DNA from: Desulfobulbus sp.
GTDB taxonomy: Bacteria > Pseudomonadota > Gammaproteobacteria > Burkholderiales > Rhodocyclaceae
NCBI GenBank assembly: GCA_009782025.1
Contig: WQUQ01000285.1
Coordinates: 1-19,765, forward strand
Direction: 5' to 3'
Length of the DNA: 19,765 nt
Part shown: positions 6,589-19,660 of the stretch, piece after piece
How positions within the stretch are numbered: the stretch's first letter is position 1
Layout of the letters: each line of letters starts with the position of its first letter
Notes under the pieces: model-generated
The model's database searches: none
Told to the model about the DNA's origin: nothing
Seen by the model: the letters and a program-made list of their open reading frames with translations, nothing else
Made by a program: the position numbers and the translations under genes

Positions 6589-7992
6589 CTACGGCGCCGC
6601 CGGCTCCAGCGCCTGTTGCACCCGCCGCAGGCGTGACTCATCGAGCGCGCCGGCCAGCCGCATCAAACGCAGTGCGTCCAGGTGCACTTGCACCCGCGCC
6701 TGGGTCAACGCCAGTTGCGCGGCGGCGTTGTCGTTTTCGGCGTTGAGCAAATCGAGCGTCGTGCGCTCGCCGATTTCGTAGCCGGTGCGCGTGGAATTCA
6801 GCCGCGCCGTGCTGGCCTGCGCGGCGGCGGCCAGCGCGAGCGCCTGGGCGCGGCCAACCGACACGCCCAGCCAGGCGGCGCGCGCCTGCTGGGTTGCCTG
6901 CTGGCGCGCCTGATCGAGTGCGGCCTGCGCCTGCTGGATGTGGGCCAGCGATTCATCGTGGCGGGCGCTGCGCCCGCCGCCGACATCCAGCGGCAGGCTG
7001 ATCTGCACGCCGATCATGCCTTGGGTCTGGCGGTTGCTGGCGCTGCCGAAATCGCCGCTGCCCGACAATTGCTCATGACCCGCACGCGCCACCAGATCGA
7101 CGCTGGGCGACAGGGCCCCTTCGGTCTTGCGCGCCTGTTCCTGGGCATTTTTCAGCCCCAGCGCCGCCGCCCGCACCTGCGGCGCCTGGACGGCCACGCG
7201 CTCAAGCCAGGGGGGCAGTTCGCCCGCATCGGCGGCGTCGGGCAGCCGGGCTGGCAGGGCCAGCACATCGGCGTTGGTCACCGGCAAACCGGTCAGGTCG
7301 GCCAGCAGGCTGCGGCGCAGTTCCCGTTGCGCTTGCGCCGCCAGTTGCTGAGCGCGCAGGCCTTCGGCGCGGGCTGTGGTTTCATGCACGTCGATGACCG
7401 GGCGGTCGCCGAGATCGAAACGGCTTTGCGCCTCGCTCTGCGCCCGCGTGACGGCGGCAAGCTGACGCTCGATCAGGCGTAACTGCTGGTCAGCCACGGC
7501 GAGGTCGAAATAGCTTTGCGCCGTGCGCAGCATCAGATCGGCCTGCGCGTCGTCCCAGGCCAGATCAGCCTGCTGGGCGCTCAGACGCATTTGCTCGGCC
7601 TCGGCATCGCGCGTGCGGTCAAACAGCGGCTGGCGCAATTCGATGCCGGCGCTGGCGCTGACGCCGCCGTGAATCGAGGTGTCGAAATCGGCGTCGCTCA
7701 TGCGCCCCATGCCGGGCGCGGCAAAGCGTGCGCCGCGTGTGGCGCTGTCGGCGCTCGCCACACCCGCGCTCGCCTGCACGGCCAGACTGGGTCGCCACAG
7801 GGCATCGGCCTGCCGCGTCTGCGTCTGCCCTGCGTCGCGCCCGGCGCGGGCGGTGGCGTAAGCCGGATCATGCGTCAGCGCGGCGCGCCAGGCGTCCATC
7901 AGATCGAGCGCCCAGGCGCCGCCGGGCGCGGCCAGCGTCAATGCCAATGTCAGCGGCGCGAGCCGGTTCATTTTTTTGTTGCGTTGTTTCAT
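6589..7992 (-). CDS. TolC-family outer membrane efflux protein
   Basis: A 467-residue protein with a signal peptide (basic start, hydrophobic LAPLTLALTLAAPGG, cleavage probably after GAWA, residue 28). The mature start LDLMDAWRAALTHDPAYATARAGRDAG is the classic TolC-family opening, and the two repeated halves show long alanine/glutamine-rich helical stretches with the GDRPVIDVHETTARAE and GERTTLDLLNAENDNAAAQLALTQARV segments that mark each half. It would form the outer-membrane channel of the tripartite pump encoded upstream in the same operon (adaptor and RND permease). The start at 7992 is preceded by CAGGGAA at a suitable distance; the ATG at 7971 is an alternative. It is the last gene of the operon and meets the convergent gene at an 8-base gap. 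Confidence 0.92.
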   Translation of the reverse strand: MKQRNKKMNRLAPLTLALTLAAPGGAWALDLMDAWRAALTHDPAYATARAGRDAGQTQTRQADALWRPSLAVQASAGVASADSATRGARFAAPGMGRMSDADFDTSIHGGVSASAGIELRQPLFDRTRDAEAEQMRLSAQQADLAWDDAQADLMLRTAQSYFDLAVADQQLRLIERQLAAVTRAQSEAQSRFDLGDRPVIDVHETTARAEGLRAQQLAAQAQRELRRSLLADLTGLPVTNADVLALPARLPDAADAGELPPWLERVAVQAPQVRAAALGLKNAQEQARKTEGALSPSVDLVARAGHEQLSGSGDFGSASNRQTQGMIGVQISLPLDVGGGRSARHDESLAHIQQAQAALDQARQQATQQARAAWLGVSVGRAQALALAAAAQASTARLNSTRTGYEIGERTTLDLLNAENDNAAAQLALTQARVQVHLDALRLMRLAGALDESRLRRVQQALEPAAP

Positions 7993-8027
7993 CTGCTGAT
8001 TCCCTGCGCTTGGCGCCGCTCACGACA

Positions 8028-8237
8028 TCAATTGCCTGACTGGGCGCCGAGCTTGCGCAAGATGGTTTCCAGCAGACACCAGCGCGTGATGCCGCTTTGC
8101 AGCAGATTGGCACCGACAAAGGCGGTGAACCACAGCCAGTAAACGCTGTGGAAAATCGGGCTGCCGGGCACGCCAAGCGCCAGCGAAAGCAGAATGAAAA
8201 TACCCGCGATGATGCGGACGAGTTGCCAGGAGGTCAT
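8028..8237 (-). CDS. DUF2892 / YgaP-type transmembrane protein
   Basis: A 69-residue membrane protein (MTSWQLVRIIAG...) with two hydrophobic helices (about 7-24 and 28-48) and the family ending LQSGITRWCLLETILRKLGA, which keeps the conserved cysteine (C54) and the ILRKLG helix of DUF2892 proteins. In E. coli YgaP this domain anchors a rhodanese; here it stands alone, as in many sulfur-related gene clusters. The start at 8237 was chosen because AAGGA lies 8 bases before it and family members begin here; the frame is open further up to 8282. It sits between the SQR-like gene and the TolC-type gene in one leftward operon. A membrane role linked to sulfide or persulfide handling is inference. Confidence 0.85.
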   Translation of the reverse strand: MTSWQLVRIIAGIFILLSLALGVPGSPIFHSVYWLWFTAFVGANLLQSGITRWCLLETILRKLGAQSGN

Positions 8238-8307
8238 GATGAATTTCCTTTCCTTGATTTTCTTGAGGGGAGTGAGTCGCAAGTGGGTTACGCGGCCCGG
8301 GCGGCGG

Positions 8308-9630
<1,323 letters not shown>

Positions 9631-12600
9631 CTAGCCGCCAGGCCGGCGGTAAGCGACGTAATACAGCAGCGGAATGACCACCAGGGTCAGCACGGTGGAA
9701 ACCAGAATGCCGAAGATCAGCGAGATCGCCAGCCCGTTGAAAATCGGGTCGGAGAGGATGAACAGCGCACCAATCATGGCCGCCAGCGCGGTCAGCACAA
9801 TGGGTTGGGCGCGGGTGGCGGCGCTCTTGGCAATGGCGCGTTCGAGGGGCACGCCCTCGGCCTCTTGCAGGTGAATGAAATCCACCAGCAGGATGGAGTT
9901 GCGCACGATGATGCCCGCCAGCGCGATCATGCCGATCATGCTGGTGGCCGTGAATTGCGCACCCAGCAGCGCGTGGCCCGGCATGACGCCGATGATGGTG
10001 AGCGGGATCGGCGCCATGATGATGAGCGGCGTGAGGTACGAGCCGAACTGCGCCACCACCAGGAGGTAGATCAGGATCAGCCCGACCGCGTAGGCCGCGC
10101 CCATGTCGCGGAAAGTCTCGTAGGTGATCTGCCATTCGCCGTCCCACTTGAGCGCGTAGCTGCGGTAGGGGTCTTGCGGCTGGCGGATGAAGTATTCGGC
10201 CAGCCTGCCGCCATCGGGCATGGCAAGCTCAGCCAGCGCGCCGCGCATTTTGAACATGCCGTACAGCGGGCTGTCGAGATCGCCGGGTTTGGTGCCGGCC
10301 ATGTCGCCGGTGACGAACTGCACGGGCAGCAAATCCTTGTGATAAATCGGCTCCTCGCGCTGCGTATGGGTGACAGTGACCAGTTCGCCAATCGGCACCA
10401 GCGCCCCGCTCCTGGAACGCACATTGAGTTGCAGCAGCGCATCGAGACTGCCGTGCAGTTCGGGCGTCAGTTGCAGCCAGGTGGGCACGGCAAAGCGGCT
10501 CTGGTCGTGCAGATAGGTGGCAGCATCGCCGCTGAACCCCATGTGCAGCGTGGCGGCAATCGCATCCTGCGTCACACCCAGTTGCGCGGCCTTGCGCCGA
10601 TCCACCAGCAGGTCGATCTTGGGCGCGGCGGCGATGGTGGTGTCATCAATATCGACCACGCCGGGTTGCTGCTCGAACACCTTGCGCACCTGCCGCGCAA
10701 CGGTATGACGGCCGTCAACTTCCGGGCCGTAGATTTCCGCCACGATGGGCGCCAGCACGGGCGGGCCGGGCGGCACTTCCACCACTTTCACGCTGGCGCC
10801 GTAGCGCAGGCCGATTTCGTGCAGCGCCGGGCGCACGCGCATGGCGATGGCGTGGCTCTGGTCGTGGCGCTGCGATTTGTCGATCAGGTTCACTTGCAGA
10901 TCGCCCACCTCGCCGCCCGCGCGCAGATAGTACTGGCGTACCAGACCGTTGAAATTGATGGGCGCGGCAGTGCCGGCGTAGGCCTGGTAGTTGGTGACTT
11001 CGGGCACGGTGGCCAGATGGTTCCCCAGTTCGCGCAGCAGCGCGGCGGTTTTTTCGACCGGCGTGCCAGCGGGCATATCGACCACCACCTGAAATTCGCT
11101 CTTGTTGTCGAAGGGCAGCATCTTGAGCACCACCAGCCCGAGCACCGGCAGCAGCAGCGAGAGCGCGATCAGGCCGCCGATGAAGGCACCGAGCAGCCAG
11201 CGGTTGCGCCCCTTCTTTTGTCCGTCCGGGGCATCGAGCAGGGCGCCGAAGATGCGCTCGAACAGGGGGCCAAGTTTGCCTGCCAGTCCGTGTCCCGCCG
11301 CCTTGCCGTGGTCATCGGTGGCGCTGGCCTTCATCCAGTGCCGCGCCAGCCACGGCGTCAGCACGAAGGCAATGGCCAGCGACAGCAACATGCCCATGCT
11401 GGCGTTGATCGGAATTGGCGCCATGTACGGCCCCATCAGGCCGCTGACGAAGGCCATCGGCAGCAGCGCGGCAATCACCGTGAGCGTGGCCAGAATGGTC
11501 GGCCCGCCGACTTCATCGACCGCGCCGGGAATGATCTGGATGAGCGTTTTGCCGGGGAACAGCATCTGGTGCCGGTGGATGTTCTCGACCACCACGATGG
11601 CGTCATCGACCAGAATGCCGATGGAAAAAATCAGGGCGAACAGCGACACGCGGTTGAGCGTGAAGCCCCAGGCCCAGGACGCGAACAGCGTTACCGTCAG
11701 CGTCAGCACCACCGCCGTGCCGACGATGGCCGCCTCGCGCCGCCCGAGCGCGACGAACACCAGCGCCACCACGGAGAGCGTGGCGAATAACAGCTTTTTG
11801 ATGAGCGTCATCGCCTTGTCATTGGCGGTGGCGCCATAGTTGCGCGTCTCCGACACCTGCACATCGGCTGGAATCACCACCCCCTTCAATTGCTCGACGC
11901 GCTGCATCAGCGCATCGGCCACGGTGATCGCGTTTTCGCCCGGTTTTTTGGTGATGGCGAGCGTCACCGAGGGCTGTTCGACGGCACGCGGCGCGGCCCC
12001 GGCGCGGTCGATTTCGCCATGCCATGCCATGTGTTGTGCGGGCGGCGCGCCGTCGCGCACATTGGCCACTTCGCGCAGATACACCGGTTTGCCATTGCGG
12101 CTGGCCACCACCATTTCCGCGACGTCATGGGCGCTTTGCAGATACGGCCCGGTTTCGATGGCGATGGCGCGTTCGCCCGCCAGCAGATCGCCGACCGGCA
12201 AGCCCCTGTTGGCCGACTGCAAAGCGCCTTGCAGTTCGGGCAAGGTGAGACCCGCAGCGGCCAGCCGCGTCGGGTCGATCTCGATGAGCACGGCGCGGCT
12301 TGGCCCCCCAATCGTATAAACCTCGCGTGTGCCGGGCACGCGCTTGAGGTCGGTTTCGATGCTGTGGGCCACGCGCTCCAGATCGAACGCGCCGCTGTCC
12401 TCGCGCGCCGTCGACAGCGTGAGCGCGACGATGGGCACGTCATCGACGCCCTTGGGTTTGATGATGGGCGGCAGCACGCCCAGGCCCTGCGGCAGCCAGT
12501 CAGCATTCGCGCCCACTGCGTCATACAAGCGCACCACGGCAGTCTGGCGCGGCACGCCAACCTTGAACTGCACCGTGAGTATCGCCACGCCGGGGCGCGA

Positions 12601-12900
12601 GACGCTCAGCACATGCTCGATGCCGGACATCTGCGAAAGCACATGCTCGGCGGGCGTGGCCACCAGCGCCTCGACATCCTTCACGCTGGCGCCGGGAAAG
12701 GGCACGATGACGTTGGCCATCGTCACGTCGATCTGCGGTTCCTCCTCGCGCGGCGTGACCAGCACGGCGAAGATGCCCAGCAGCAGCGCCACCAGCGCCA
12801 GCAAGGGCGTGATTTGCGCCGACTGGAAGAAGGCGGCGATGCGGCCTGATACCCCCAGGCGCGGGGACGCCTCGGGCTGGGGCAGGTGGGCGTCCGTCAT
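9631..12900 (-). CDS. RND-family efflux permease (AcrB/HAE-like)
   Basis: A 1089-residue inner-membrane pump. The N-terminal helix is followed by the VTPREEEPQIDV segment and the PFPGAS porter start; residues 414-440 include LNRVSLFALIFSIGILVDDAIVVVENIH, with the proton-relay aspartates D432 and D433 equivalent to AcrB D407/D408. The second half has GMIALAGIIVRNSILLVDFI and a final helix cluster. Both large periplasmic loops are present, so the pump is intact. The REEEP-type sequence fits a divergent HAE-like group rather than CusA-type metal pumps; I see no methionine relay pattern. The start at 12900 overlaps the adaptor stop by one base (TGATG). The frame is open to 13146, but that part lies inside the adaptor gene and is low-complexity. 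The substrate is unknown. Confidence 0.93.
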   Translation of the reverse strand: MTDAHLPQPEASPRLGVSGRIAAFFQSAQITPLLALVALLLGIFAVLVTPREEEPQIDVTMANVIVPFPGASVKDVEALVATPAEHVLSQMSGIEHVLSVSRPGVAILTVQFKVGVPRQTAVVRLYDAVGANADWLPQGLGVLPPIIKPKGVDDVPIVALTLSTAREDSGAFDLERVAHSIETDLKRVPGTREVYTIGGPSRAVLIEIDPTRLAAAGLTLPELQGALQSANRGLPVGDLLAGERAIAIETGPYLQSAHDVAEMVVASRNGKPVYLREVANVRDGAPPAQHMAWHGEIDRAGAAPRAVEQPSVTLAITKKPGENAITVADALMQRVEQLKGVVIPADVQVSETRNYGATANDKAMTLIKKLLFATLSVVALVFVALGRREAAIVGTAVVLTLTVTLFASWAWGFTLNRVSLFALIFSIGILVDDAIVVVENIHRHQMLFPGKTLIQIIPGAVDEVGGPTILATLTVIAALLPMAFVSGLMGPYMAPIPINASMGMLLSLAIAFVLTPWLARHWMKASATDDHGKAAGHGLAGKLGPLFERIFGALLDAPDGQKKGRNRWLLGAFIGGLIALSLLLPVLGLVVLKMLPFDNKSEFQVVVDMPAGTPVEKTAALLRELGNHLATVPEVTNYQAYAGTAAPINFNGLVRQYYLRAGGEVGDLQVNLIDKSQRHDQSHAIAMRVRPALHEIGLRYGASVKVVEVPPGPPVLAPIVAEIYGPEVDGRHTVARQVRKVFEQQPGVVDIDDTTIAAAPKIDLLVDRRKAAQLGVTQDAIAATLHMGFSGDAATYLHDQSRFAVPTWLQLTPELHGSLDALLQLNVRSRSGALVPIGELVTVTHTQREEPIYHKDLLPVQFVTGDMAGTKPGDLDSPLYGMFKMRGALAELAMPDGGRLAEYFIRQPQDPYRSYALKWDGEWQITYETFRDMGAAYAVGLILIYLLVVAQFGSYLTPLIIMAPIPLTIIGVMPGHALLGAQFTATSMIGMIALAGIIVRNSILLVDFIHLQEAEGVPLERAIAKSAATRAQPIVLTALAAMIGALFILSDPIFNGLAISLIFGILVSTVLTLVVIPLLYYVAYRRPGG

Positions 12901-13937
12901 CACTTGCCGCCCTCGGCCAGCCGCCGCAGCACCGTCTGCGGCTCCGTCACCACGCGCTCGCCCGCCGCCAGGCCGCTGATGATCTCCACCTGATCGCCGC
13001 GCACCGGCCCCAGCCGCACCTGCCGCAGCAGCGGTACGCCCTGGGCGTCCAGCACGTACACCCCCGTCATTTCCGAACGCCGCACCAGGGTTGCCCGGGG
13101 CACCCACACGCCGGCCGCTTCCGCGCTGGCCGCCACCGGCAGCCACAAACGCGCGAACTGCCCCGGCGCCGCTCCCTGGCCGGCCGGCAGATCCGCGCGC
13201 ACCTGCCGCGTCATGGAGGCGGGATCGACCGTGGGCAACACCTGCACGCGCGCCGGCTCGATCCGCCCGTCCTGCCCGCCCAACTGCACGCGCGCGCCGT
13301 CGATGCCCCGCGCCAATACGGCAACCGGCACCGCCGCGCTCACCCGCAGCGCCGCCGGGTCATAGACCGTGATGAGCGGTCGGCCCGGCATGACCATGTC
13401 GCCCTGCTCCACCGCCACCACCGCCACCACGCCGGCAAAAGGCGCGGTGATTTCATGCCAGCCGGTCTGCGCCCGCGCTGCGCGATCCTGCGCCTGCGCG
13501 CTGCGGTATTGCGCCTCGGCCTGCTCCAGCGCGGCGCGGGCGATGTGGTTTTGCGCGAAAAGCTGGCGTTTGCGCTCCACCTCGCGCGTCGCCACCTCCA
13601 GCGCCGCCGAACTGGCCGCCACGCCCTGCTCCGCCGCCCGCGCGTCGATGCGCGCCAGCACCTGTCCGGCGCGCACGCTATCGCCCACTTTCACGTTCAG
13701 CGCCAGCACGGCGCCGGGCACCTGCGCGGCCAGCACCGATTGGCGCACGGCCTCGACCGTACCGTCATACGCTGCGGCGGCGGCATCCGCCCTGGCTTGC
13801 GCGGGCACGGTCGGCCATTCCCCGGCCGGCGCCGCCAGCGGCAAAGCCAATGCCGCGCCCAGCATCAGCCGGGGCAGCAGAAAACACGGTTGACGCAAAA
13901 CACCCCCAGCGAAACGCTTCGTTCCTGAACACCACAT
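12900..13937 (-). CDS. RND periplasmic adaptor (membrane fusion protein)
   Basis: A 345-residue adaptor with a signal peptide (LMLGAALALPLAAPA, cleavage probably after residue 38; no lipobox cysteine). It shows the first lipoyl half (VPGAVLALNVKVGDSVRAGQVLARID, about 73-98), an alpha-helical hairpin (about 102-157), the second lipoyl half (ITAPFAGVVAVVAVEQGDMV, 163-182) and the beta-barrel and membrane-proximal domains ending in VEIISGLAAGERVVTEP. It would link the permease and the TolC-type channel encoded downstream. It is the first gene of the leftward operon; GAGGA lies 7 bases before the ATG. Its short hairpin is consistent with a two-component seal to TolC. Confidence 0.93.
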   Translation of the reverse strand: MWCSGTKRFAGGVLRQPCFLLPRLMLGAALALPLAAPAGEWPTVPAQARADAAAAAYDGTVEAVRQSVLAAQVPGAVLALNVKVGDSVRAGQVLARIDARAAEQGVAASSAALEVATREVERKRQLFAQNHIARAALEQAEAQYRSAQAQDRAARAQTGWHEITAPFAGVVAVVAVEQGDMVMPGRPLITVYDPAALRVSAAVPVAVLARGIDGARVQLGGQDGRIEPARVQVLPTVDPASMTRQVRADLPAGQGAAPGQFARLWLPVAASAEAAGVWVPRATLVRRSEMTGVYVLDAQGVPLLRQVRLGPVRGDQVEIISGLAAGERVVTEPQTVLRRLAEGGK

Positions 13938-13978
13938 GGATCTATCCTCGTTTGTATCCGCCCGCGATGACTCGACTC

Positions 13979-14007
13979 TTGGCAGAAATCATTCTGCGCG
14001 CTATTAT
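13979..14007 (+). promoter_or_regulatory. Promoter of the arsR-type gene
   Basis: On the plus strand TTGGCA (13979-13984), 17 bases and TATTAT (14002-14007) match the consensus at 5/6 and 5/6. The predicted start near 14014 gives a leader of about 30 bases. Its -10 overlaps the -10 of the opposite promoter by five bases, so the two promoters are face to face. Confidence 0.65.
13982..13997. promoter_or_regulatory. Second inverted repeat GCAGAA-N4-TTCTGC
   Basis: A perfect 6-bp inverted repeat with a 4-base centre lies in the -35/-10 spacer of the arsR promoter and over the expected start site of the opposite transcript. It differs in sequence from the other repeat, so it may serve a different protein or form a hairpin at the operon mRNA 5' end. 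Confidence 0.45.
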
Positions 14008-14031
14008 TTGCAGAGTTGCGCAAATAGTCAA
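14003..14031 (-). promoter_or_regulatory. Promoter of the adaptor-RND-SQR-TolC operon
   Basis: On the minus strand TTGACT (14026-14031), a spacer of exactly 17 bases and AATAAT (14003-14008) match the sigma-70 consensus at 5/6 and 5/6. The predicted start near 13996 gives a leader of about 60 bases before the adaptor ATG. The spacer is covered by the inverted repeat at 14005-14026. Confidence 0.7.
14005..14026. promoter_or_regulatory. Candidate ArsR-family operator (TATTTGC-N8-GCAAATA)
   Basis: A perfect 7-bp inverted repeat with an 8-base centre, filling the -35/-10 spacer of the operon promoter and touching the -10 of the arsR promoter. The 22-base size and AT-rich half-sites fit ArsR-family dimer sites. 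Binding would block both promoters. Assignment to this regulator is inference from position. Confidence 0.6.
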
Positions 14032-14044
14032 CATTCCAGCCGAT

Positions 14045-14428
14045 ATGACAAACGATGCTGCCCCCCTGGCCAGAGCGCTGCCTCCCGAAGCGCTGGCGTA
14101 TGTTTCGGATTACTTTCGCGTTTTGTCCGAGCCGATGCGCCTGCGCATTCTGAATACGCTGTGCGCCGGCGAATTGAGCGTCGGTGAAGTGGCGCAGCAC
14201 ATTGATTCGAGCATCGCCAACACCTCGCGCCATCTGGCGCAAATGGCGCAATACGGCCTGATCGAGCGCGAAAGCCGCGGCAACAGCGCCTACTACCGCA
14301 TTGCCGACCCCTCGGTGCATCAACTGTGCGAACTGGTCTGTGGCAGCCTGGTGCGCCGCTTCGATGCACAGGCCGGCACGCACAAGGCGCTGCGCAAGGC
14401 GCGTACCGCCGGAGATCCTGCGGCATAG
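14045..14428 (+). CDS. ArsR/SmtB-family repressor, likely controls the divergent RND-SQR operon
   Basis: A 127-residue winged-helix regulator: LSEPMRLRILNTLCAGELSVGEVAQHI, then the recognition region SSIANTSRHLAQMAQYGLIERESRGNSAYYRI. It has three cysteines, C40, C95 and C99. C40 is at the position of the first reactive cysteine of persulfide- or redox-sensing relatives (BigR, SqrR, HlyU), while C99 lies about one helical turn before their second cysteine. No ELCVCDL metal site of ArsR or SmtB is present. The ATG at 14045 was chosen because it lies downstream of the promoter; an in-frame ATG at 13967 would place the promoter and operator inside the gene. No strong ribosome-binding site is visible. 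Divergent to the adaptor gene with 107 bases between. Confidence 0.9.
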   Translation: MTNDAAPLARALPPEALAYVSDYFRVLSEPMRLRILNTLCAGELSVGEVAQHIDSSIANTSRHLAQMAQYGLIERESRGNSAYYRIADPSVHQLCELVCGSLVRRFDAQAGTHKALRKARTAGDPAA

Positions 14429-14619: not shown

Positions 14620-15891
<1,272 letters not shown>

Positions 15892-18856: not shown

Positions 18857-19240
18857 CAGGGCGATCGCATGAAATTCATGTCAACCCAAGCAATTGAGCG
18901 CGGTAGGGATCGGAAGTCGCGGCGATGAGGCGTCGTGCCTTGATGCCACTCTTTCGTGGAATGGGGTCAAGGCGGATGAGGTTCAGTGTCATGTGCTTGA
19001 GGACGGCCAGGTTGTGGGCGGCATGGCCGGTACGAGCACGCATCTGATCATCGGCGAAGACAACGTTCATGCACCAGTGCAGGCGGTTTTCGACACTCCA
19101 GTGCGCGCGGATCGCCCGCAAGAGGCGATCCGCATCGGGGGCGAGGCTCGAAAGATAGTAGCGATGCTCAAGTGTCGTCTTGCCCTTGATCTCGCGCTGT
19201 GACTCGATCACCGCGAAGGAGTTCAGATCTGACCGGATAC
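18857..19240 (-). mobile_element. ISAs1-family insertion sequence, 3' fragment
   Basis: The element end is placed at 18857, where CAGGGCGATCGCATG begins; terminal sequences of this form are what I remember for ISAs1-type elements, so this is family knowledge rather than proof. The other end is missing: homology stops near 19235-19240 where IS630-type sequence begins. No target duplication can be judged. Confidence 0.7.
18876..19240 (-). pseudogene. ISAs1-type transposase, C-terminal fragment
   Basis: About 120 residues, from SDLNSFAVIESQREIKGKTT to the natural C-terminus. RYYLSSLAPDADRLLRAIRAHWSVENRLHWCMNVVFADDQ with GHAAHNLAVLKHMTLNLIR is the conserved end of the ISAs1 DDE transposase and includes the third catalytic acid (E in SVENRLHW). 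The N-terminal two thirds, with the two catalytic aspartates, are absent. The open frame runs up to 19283, but the first 14 or so residues are out-of-frame sequence from the adjoining IS630-type fragment. Not functional. Confidence 0.85.
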
Positions 19241-19251
19241 TACTCATCAAG

Positions 19252-19660
19252 TCATGCCTTGACCGCTTCGGGGTGTTGTTCATACGCCCGCTTGATCGGC
19301 CTTTGCGGGGTGAAGCCCCAATGCTTGAGATACTCGCCCATGGTGCGGATCGGCAAGTCGATACCGAACTCCTGCTGCATCAAGAGCAACACCGCTCCCC
19401 GCGTCCAGAGCGCAAACGAGAGCTTCAACTGCTCTGGTCGGTTCTTGCAGATCAGCCGCTGGATGTGCAACTCCTGCTCGGCCGACAGGCGCCGCTGCTC
19501 TCCTGGTGCGCGCCCTGTCGGCTTGGGCGTCAGGGCTTGAAGGTTTCCCGCCTTGACCGCCCTGCGTACCGTACCCTGCGCTATGCCCAGCGCCATCGCA
19601 ATGTCTTTGATCGCCATGCTGCGCCGGTGCAACCGCACCGCCTGCTTGCGCCCGTCTGTC
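19252..19660 (-). pseudogene. IS630-type transposase, N-terminal fragment
   Basis: About 135 residues: GRKQAVRLHRRSMAIKDIAMALGIAQGTVRRAVKAG (helix-turn-helix), then LSAEQELHIQRLICKNRPEQLKLSFALWTRGAVLLLMQQEFGIDL and MGEYLKHWGFTPQRPIKRAYEQHPEAVKA, the second DNA-binding region of IS630-family transposases. The protein stops right after the HPEAV(K/Q)A segment, before the catalytic DDE domain, at the join with the ISAs1-type fragment. The 5' end is also short: a stop codon lies only about ten codons above the helix-turn-helix and the family's usual N-terminus and terminal repeat are not seen. A GTG at 19638 is the first in-frame start. Not functional. Confidence 0.85.

Follow-up and report, generated by a model that had tools for sequence, protein, structure and literature searches.

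Introduction

Several described bacterial systems share parts with the locus analyzed here, in which an RND pump operon containing a sulfide:quinone oxidoreductase (SQR) gene is faced by an ArsR-type repressor gene. The locus lies on contig WQUQ01000285.1, of which we analyzed a stretch of 19,765 nucleotides, called the window as a whole. In Azospira suillum PS, the operon Dsui_3440-3443, annotated as an unknown gene, an efflux pump, an SQR and a membrane fusion protein (MFP), is highly expressed under H2S and was also pointed to by barcode sequencing (Bar-seq); expression of a separate gene for DUF2892 rose about tenfold (PMC5358917). The two operons share an MFP, an SQR, an RND permease and an unknown gene, and the A. 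suillum order is of the MFP-SQR-RND-DUF2892 type found in the GTDB family of the window; the likeness rests on gene order and annotation. They differ in that the A. suillum SQR stands between adaptor and permease, and the parts of that report dealing with the operon mention no ArsR or TolC and do not present the set as a conserved system.

In the E. coli ygaVP operon, YgaV is a sulfide-responsive ArsR that is co-transcribed with YgaP (PMC9774250). The membrane part of YgaP gives its name to PF11127, the family of the window DUF2892 protein. Unlike the window, ygaVP contains neither pump nor SQR, and YgaP has a rhodanese domain, whereas the window protein consists of only the membrane part. Known persulfide-sensing ArsRs use a cysteine pair on alpha2 and alpha5, and atypical As(III) sensors use three alpha5 cysteines (PMC10509353). 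The solved Acidithiobacillus ferrooxidans SQR (3sz0 and others) shares the three catalytic cysteines of the window SQR, which is embedded in a pump operon instead. An RND operon with a small inner-membrane protein, as in the window, is also known from Pseudomonas, namely MexGHI-OpmD, in which MexG is DoxX-type and the substrate is phenazine. Among the open-access papers listed by our searches, no other one is apparent that treats the RND-DUF2892-SQR set as a system, and none that describes an ArsR persulfide sensor with a CxxxC pair.

To our knowledge, little is known about how bacteria dispose of the sulfane sulfur from sulfide oxidation, beyond oxidizing it further. We propose that the window locus as a whole is best explained as a copy of a widespread stress operon against sulfide and reactive sulfur (persulfide/polysulfide), with a CxxxC ArsR as its switch and a pump for a sulfur product, a reading to which we assign a probability of about 0.55. 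Its role as a sulfide and reactive-sulfur stress unit, taken by itself, is likely, while the identity of the exported substrate as a sulfur species is tentative and somewhat doubtful. Sulfane-sulfur export becomes directly testable with a conserved pump that is linked to SQR, DUF2892 and repressors of the persulfide-sensor type.

Layout of the pump locus

Protein families of the window genes were assigned by Pfam, and subfamilies by NCBIfam score cut-offs. The locus comprises the following features:

14045..14428, plus strand: ArsR-family repressor (Pfam HTH_5/HTH_20) with invariant C95-x3-C99 (LC[DE]LVC) in its last helix, lacking the alpha2 Cys
14003..14028, no strand: operator-like palindrome ATTATTTGC-N8-GCAAATAGT, overlapping promoter-like sites on both strands
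12900..13937, minus strand: periplasmic adaptor (MFP; Pfam HlyD_D23), possible start at 13865
9631..12900, minus strand: RND permease of 1089 aa (Pfam ACR_tran, 492 bits) with a VDDA Asp pair
8308..9588, minus strand: type I SQR (Pfam Pyr_redox_2) with Cys128, Cys160 and Cys356
8028..8237, minus strand: DUF2892 / YgaP-like transmembrane protein of 69 aa (PF11127, YgaP-like_TM) with one invariant Cys
6589..7992, minus strand: TolC-type outer-membrane channel (Pfam OEP)

The initial annotation had described a packed leftward run of adaptor, RND, SQR, DUF2892 and TolC genes faced by arsR, and this layout of six genes was confirmed throughout. The adaptor stop and the permease ATG overlap by one base (12900), and the gaps measure 42 bases between RND and SQR, 70 between SQR and DUF2892, and 35 between DUF2892 and TolC. 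The parts of a tripartite RND pump, i.e. an ACR_tran permease with the Asp pair, a HlyD adaptor and an OEP channel, are thus present in one run. The true adaptor start may be 13865 instead of 13937, and arsR probably starts at 14045, not at 13850, where its open reading frame begins.

The pump recurs with DUF2892 and SQR

We searched for the permease in 150 genomes of the same GTDB family (E <= 1e-100) and in 299 genomes of the same phylum (E <= 1e-180). A permease of the window type was present in 111/150 and 137/299 genomes, respectively, an RND family for which our reading, if true, would supply a natural role. Genes within 6 kb of the permease were sought by tblastn (E <= 1e-6, no length filter) in the title-bearing loci, which are the best 80, i.e. 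the closest copies. This detected the adaptor in 74 loci, DUF2892 in 58, ArsR in 36, SQR in 22 and TolC in 18, as well as thioredoxin (15), rhodanese (13), a persulfide-dioxygenase-like gene (9), a CsoR-type repressor (7), SLAC1 (7) and TauE (5). Several of these loci sit on short contigs, so that absences are not firm, and "persulfide dioxygenase" (PDO) is our reading of a metallo-beta-lactamase gene to which Pfam assigns Lactamase_B alone.

For a case/control comparison, 40 loci of the window-type permease were set against 40 ordinary HAE1 pump loci (TIGR00915) from the same GTDB family, with flanks reaching about 6.5 kb to either side unless the contig ended earlier. DUF2892 was found at 36/40 versus 0/40 loci, SQR at 13/40 versus 0/40 (one of the 13, in L174, being only 30% identical), and ArsR at 6/40 versus 0/40 (p = 0.026). 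These data bear on the possibility of a general drug or solvent pump with SQR and DUF2892 as chance acquisitions. As an RND protein the permease is divergent, staying under the cut-off of all 16 NCBIfam models it matched; the best of these are multidrug RND family models, which would suit such a pump, as would the many copies with no SQR seen in the operon. However, SQR and DUF2892 are linked to this pump repeatedly, in differing orders, and are missing from all 40 ordinary HAE1 loci, and we consider a chance acquisition very unlikely.

In the same-family genomes, SQR was located at 52 places, of which 24 are at most 10 kb from the permease, all 24 on its strand. The comparison omits seven fragment rows of the permease list and one of 53 SQR rows, and at least one of the other 28 places (in G121) is at a contig end. 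DUF2892 is a near-constant partner of the pump and SQR an accessory one. The link between DUF2892 and pump is kept even in distant copies with rearranged parts: in a Vibrio copy (54.6% identity to the permease) DUF2892 is divergent from the adaptor-permease pair, and in an Azospirillum copy (43.1% identity) ArsR and DUF2892 are divergent and a rhodanese gene follows the permease. No annotated SQR was found in the inspected stretch of either copy.

Conservation of the gene order had been proposed as a check on the initial annotation, and here the outcome was divided. The gene set recurs widely in relatives, so a unique arrangement was rejected for the set, given the matches across same-family and same-phylum genomes and the case/control comparison. 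The exact six-gene order, by contrast, was found in the window only, among the loci compared. Seven other loci have the RND-SQR order, six of them with DUF2892 found behind, and none of the seven gave a TolC match beside the pump. The recurring gene set probably serves as an inherent protection from sulfide poisoning. Carriage on plasmids was also considered and rejected: the plasmid collection gave 7 records (E up to 1e-100), all below 60% identity. The fullest sulfide set that we noticed is in the Polaromonas loci L094 and L096, where a BigR-type ArsR, a persulfide-dioxygenase-like gene, adaptor, permease, SQR and DUF2892 occur together.

Placement of SQR beside the pump

SQR occupies four positions relative to the pump. 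It lies downstream of DUF2892, mostly after TolC, in 10 rows (in L035 with no TolC match between); between permease and DUF2892 in 8 rows including the window (in L101 with no DUF2892 match following); in 12 rows it separates adaptor from permease, and in L092, L119 and L120 it stands upstream of the adaptor gene. In the SQR tree, the window SQR groups with SQRs of the first position, the nearest being that of L040 at 83% identity (bootstraps there 82-90), and the seven other loci sharing the window placement form a clade of their own (100/99). Five position labels, including unlinked, require 9 changes on the tree compared with a shuffled mean of 23.2 (40/41 rows). Judging from this tree, SQR seems to have reached this pump more than once, which speaks for a working link and not for a single frozen accident. 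FastTree places the window permease in a four-row subclade with L041, L042 and L047 (support 97); for position labels on this permease tree, L092 and L132 were counted as unlinked, and L119 and L120 as adaptor-SQR-permease.

Two predicted sensor designs among the ArsR repressors

C95 and C99 are both invariant in 21/21 aligned ArsRs of the clade, and an AlphaFold model of the window ArsR (mean pLDDT, the predicted local distance difference test, 85) places them on the last helix, residues 89-122. Where BigR has its alpha2 Cys, the window ArsR has Asn, and this N37 is nearly invariant in the same 21-row alignment. The BigR model gives 38.9 bits against a cut-off of 155, and identity with SqrR or BigR is ruled out by this score together with the missing alpha2 Cys. 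The likeness to SqrR/BigR consists of an ArsR fold beside sulfide-oxidation genes; the window protein differs by having C95-x3-C99 instead of the alpha2-containing pair. In the relative from L052, the second Cys of the CxxxC pair falls, by count, four residues short of the SqrR alpha5 Cys in the alignment. Because the known designs described in PMC10509353 are either the alpha2/alpha5 pair or three alpha5 cysteines, the window pair fits neither class.

A search of the 150 whole same-family genomes with the window ArsR yielded 22 matches of at least 133 bits, followed by a drop to 105. By hand comparison of positions, 17 of the 22 adjoin a window-type permease. The exceptions are G074 and G011, which have no pump gene within 1.5 kb, G006, which is near a contig end, and two matches of G056 outside the comparison. 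All 19 of the 22 matches that were inspected as loci (L235 included) carry CxxxC. The CxxxC ArsR is therefore close to a dedicated pump regulator, though not strictly one.

Within 4.5 kb of the pump, 135 loci contain 47 ArsR-like genes, of which 27 have CxxxC and 20 the BigR/SqrR alpha2 Cys; the ArsR of L056 ends before the last helix. In ten aligned members of the second group, both the alpha2 and the alpha5 Cys are kept (10/10). The ArsR of L047 has BigR (84 bits) and SqrR (82 bits) as its best PDB matches, with both cysteines aligned, and faces an adaptor-permease-DUF2892 run whose pump belongs to the four-row RND subclade of the window. Two distinct ArsR sensor designs, as predicted from their cysteines, lie beside one pump family. 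The initial annotation had pointed to persulfide-sensing ArsR relatives such as SqrR and BigR; this does not hold for the window protein, whose cysteines differ, and survives for other copies of the pump, beside which BigR/SqrR-type repressors occur. With two designs on one pump, the CxxxC ArsR would offer a test of how many thiol layouts can read one signal.

L036 and L038 have both designs, CxxxC and BigR-type, within 4 kb of one pump. The Thiobacillus/Gallionella-type loci L066, L070, L073, L081, L090 and L111 contain a third ArsR group (RLKILCVLG...VFC), which points in the same direction as the pump; in several of these loci rhodanese, glutaredoxin or thioredoxin genes follow.

A conserved operator-like palindrome

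The palindrome ATTATTTGC-N8-GCAAATAGT lies between arsR and the adaptor gene. Its core, TATTT-N12-AAATA, occurs without mismatch in 15/36 intergenic stretches (0.04 on average over 100 shuffles) and with at most one in 22/36 (shuffles 0.91); some of the 36 rows are near-copies, e.g. L014 and L058. A scan gave 3 promoter-like sites in the region versus 1.0 in shuffles, and those overlapping the window palindrome are on both strands. In 14 of the 22 motif-bearing stretches a leftward promoter-like site overlaps the motif, a count made with no shuffle control and with hexamers that are partly the palindrome itself. Allowing up to one mismatch, the operator pattern occurs at one place in the window genome, an assembly of 2.36 Mb in 360 contigs that is 79% complete, and a reversed control pattern also has one match. 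A wider regulon was rejected on the single occurrence in this incomplete genome. L047, with its BigR-type repressor, carries another palindrome, ATTATATT-cttt-AATATAAT, and regulator and operator therefore seem to have been exchanged together.

Pump, SQR and DUF2892 proteins

The proton-path Asp pair (VDDA) of the permease is kept in 121/121 aligned rows. The window SQR matches the solved A. ferrooxidans SQR over its full length (E = 4e-182), and Cys128, Cys160 and Cys356 are present in 41/41 aligned SQRs; by this homology and these three catalytic cysteines it is classified as a type I SQR. A fourth Cys (C302, window numbering) is likewise invariant in the 41 SQRs.

The window DUF2892 protein passes PF11127 with 47.5 bits (cut-off 25.3), and its Cys is invariant in 95/95 aligned rows. 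The YgaP transmembrane domain, with Cys159 near the site, responds to thiocyanate (SCN-) (PMC4730233), which raises the possibility of cyanide or thiocyanate handling. In that case, thiocyanate formed from sulfane sulfur would be moved by DUF2892, as by the YgaP membrane part, and exported by the pump. The rhodanese gene adjoining the Azospirillum pump fits this idea. Nevertheless, none of the six window proteins has a rhodanese match in Pfam, PMC4730233 itself offers SCN- export by YgaP as a hypothesis, and SQR points to sulfide. We regard this explanation as highly improbable.

Proposed mechanism

What can be read from the DNA is the parts, their packing and linkage, the catalytic residues, a conserved candidate operator and two putative sensor designs. 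On this basis we propose a sulfide-stress operon that would work as follows. At rest, an ArsR dimer on the 14003-14028 palindrome would repress both its own gene and the pump operon in the two directions. Sulfane sulfur derived from H2S would modify C95 and C99, and ArsR would be released. Given its catalytic residues, SQR would oxidize H2S, pass the electrons to quinone and make sulfane sulfur. DUF2892, with its single invariant membrane Cys, may hand over or gate a sulfur species, and adaptor, RND permease and TolC would form a tripartite pump expelling a toxic product. This product would most likely be polysulfide or an organic persulfide or sulfur adduct, which is the weakest step of the scheme.

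A stronger form of the proposal appears rather unlikely. Here RND, SQR and the Cys-bearing DUF2892 would make up a dedicated exporter of sulfane sulfur (persulfides, polysulfides or adducts), under the control of a novel type of ArsR thiol sensor that would detect sulfane sulfur by a CxxxC pair, one helical turn apart, in place of the known alpha2-alpha5 pair.

Assessment of the sulfide-stress reading

The idea of a sulfide-stress unit goes back to the initial annotation. It is favoured by the recurrence of pump, SQR and DUF2892, by BigR/SqrR-type ArsRs at other copies, by the conserved operator-like palindrome, by the A. suillum expression data and by the persulfide-dioxygenase-like, TauE, SLAC1 and CsoR-type genes that recur among the 80 loci. 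It is corrected in two points: the window ArsR is not SqrR/BigR-like at its cysteines, and SQR is an accessory. In the case/control comparison, the expected co-occurrence with sulfur genes was seen for SQR and DUF2892 and did not extend to the remaining candidates.

A number of results speak against the reading. In the case/control comparison, there was no enrichment of PDO (1/40), SLAC1 (0), TauE/TSUP (0), CsoR (0), thioredoxin (2) or rhodanese (1), the corresponding HAE1 counts, each of 40, being 0, 0, 0, 0, 0 and 1. No SQR was seen in the operon for 58/91 rows of the permease tree, some of which are on short contigs; among the 58, L092 has an SQR just upstream of the adaptor. No alignment column of the permease has Cys in more than 30% of the 121 rows, and hence no thiol-based binding site is visible. 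The window ArsR is without the SqrR/BigR Cys pair. Among solved structures, the metal sensors SmtB and CzrA come closest to it in both sequence and fold, ahead of SqrR, BigR and the antimony repressor AntR (6uvu). In A. suillum, perchlorate-linked bulk H2S oxidation went on at the same rate when the SQR or the entire operon was deleted, and the authors favour export of metal sulfides (PMC5358917). The deletion is no test of detoxification or export, because bulk oxidation was measured and perchlorate respiration itself oxidizes sulfide. Because the model of the window ArsR is nearest to metal sensors, we hold both the sulfide-stress and the sulfur-substrate readings slightly less firmly.

The main rival is efflux of metal(loid)s or metal sulfides. 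In this case, the CxxxC pair would bind a soft metal, As(III) or Sb(III), RND would export it, and SQR would do no more than relieve metal-precipitating sulfide. The SmtB/CzrA likeness, with AntR among the matches, and the proposal of the A. suillum authors both agree with this. It should be noted that the likeness is one of overall sequence and fold, at low identity to these structures (about 21-34%). The window ArsR also passes an NCBIfam metalloregulator subfamily model (78.9 bits, cut-off 55), and ArsRs with alpha5 metalloid sites, made of three alpha5 cysteines, exist (PMC10509353). The window ArsR, however, has two invariant cysteines in its last helix and no third. AntR, too, uses alpha5 cysteines with a CxxxC-like spacing; a search with the last-helix piece alone gave no match, and AntR was not among the matches of a search with a relative. 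Moreover, the permease scores 236.8 bits with the CusA/CzcA heavy-metal RND model TIGR00914, far below its cut-off of 701.45, BigR/SqrR-type repressors sit on the same pump elsewhere, and the linkage to SQR and DUF2892 is left unexplained. Metal efflux is thus unlikely in our view, and the sulfide-stress operon remains our preferred explanation.

Genome context and history

The three best matches of the window MurJ outside the window are from three genomes of the same genus, at 80-82%, which makes a contaminant contig unlikely. The permease copies of the same-genus genomes have 62-64% identity to that of the window, and in one of these genomes, G062, SQR lies between adaptor and permease. In the sibling G112, the MurJ-PEBP site is occupied by other genes instead of the pump operon. 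Given the difference between MurJ (80-82%) and RND (62-64%) in the siblings and the other genes at the G112 site, the operon was probably gained by transfer from outside the genus, or the pattern arose by differential loss.

The genes of G112 at this site (L133, 9566-17723) include an outer-membrane channel gene and a two-component pair; others, by reading, resemble genes for an ACR3-type arsenite carrier and an arsenate reductase. Behind arsR, the gene at window positions 14620-15891 reads as an O-acetylhomoserine sulfhydrylase of the MetY type, a sulfide-using enzyme (label from translation). At the right end of the window (18876-19638), two short open reading frames read like transposase pieces, again by their translations, and are perhaps tied to transfer of the region.

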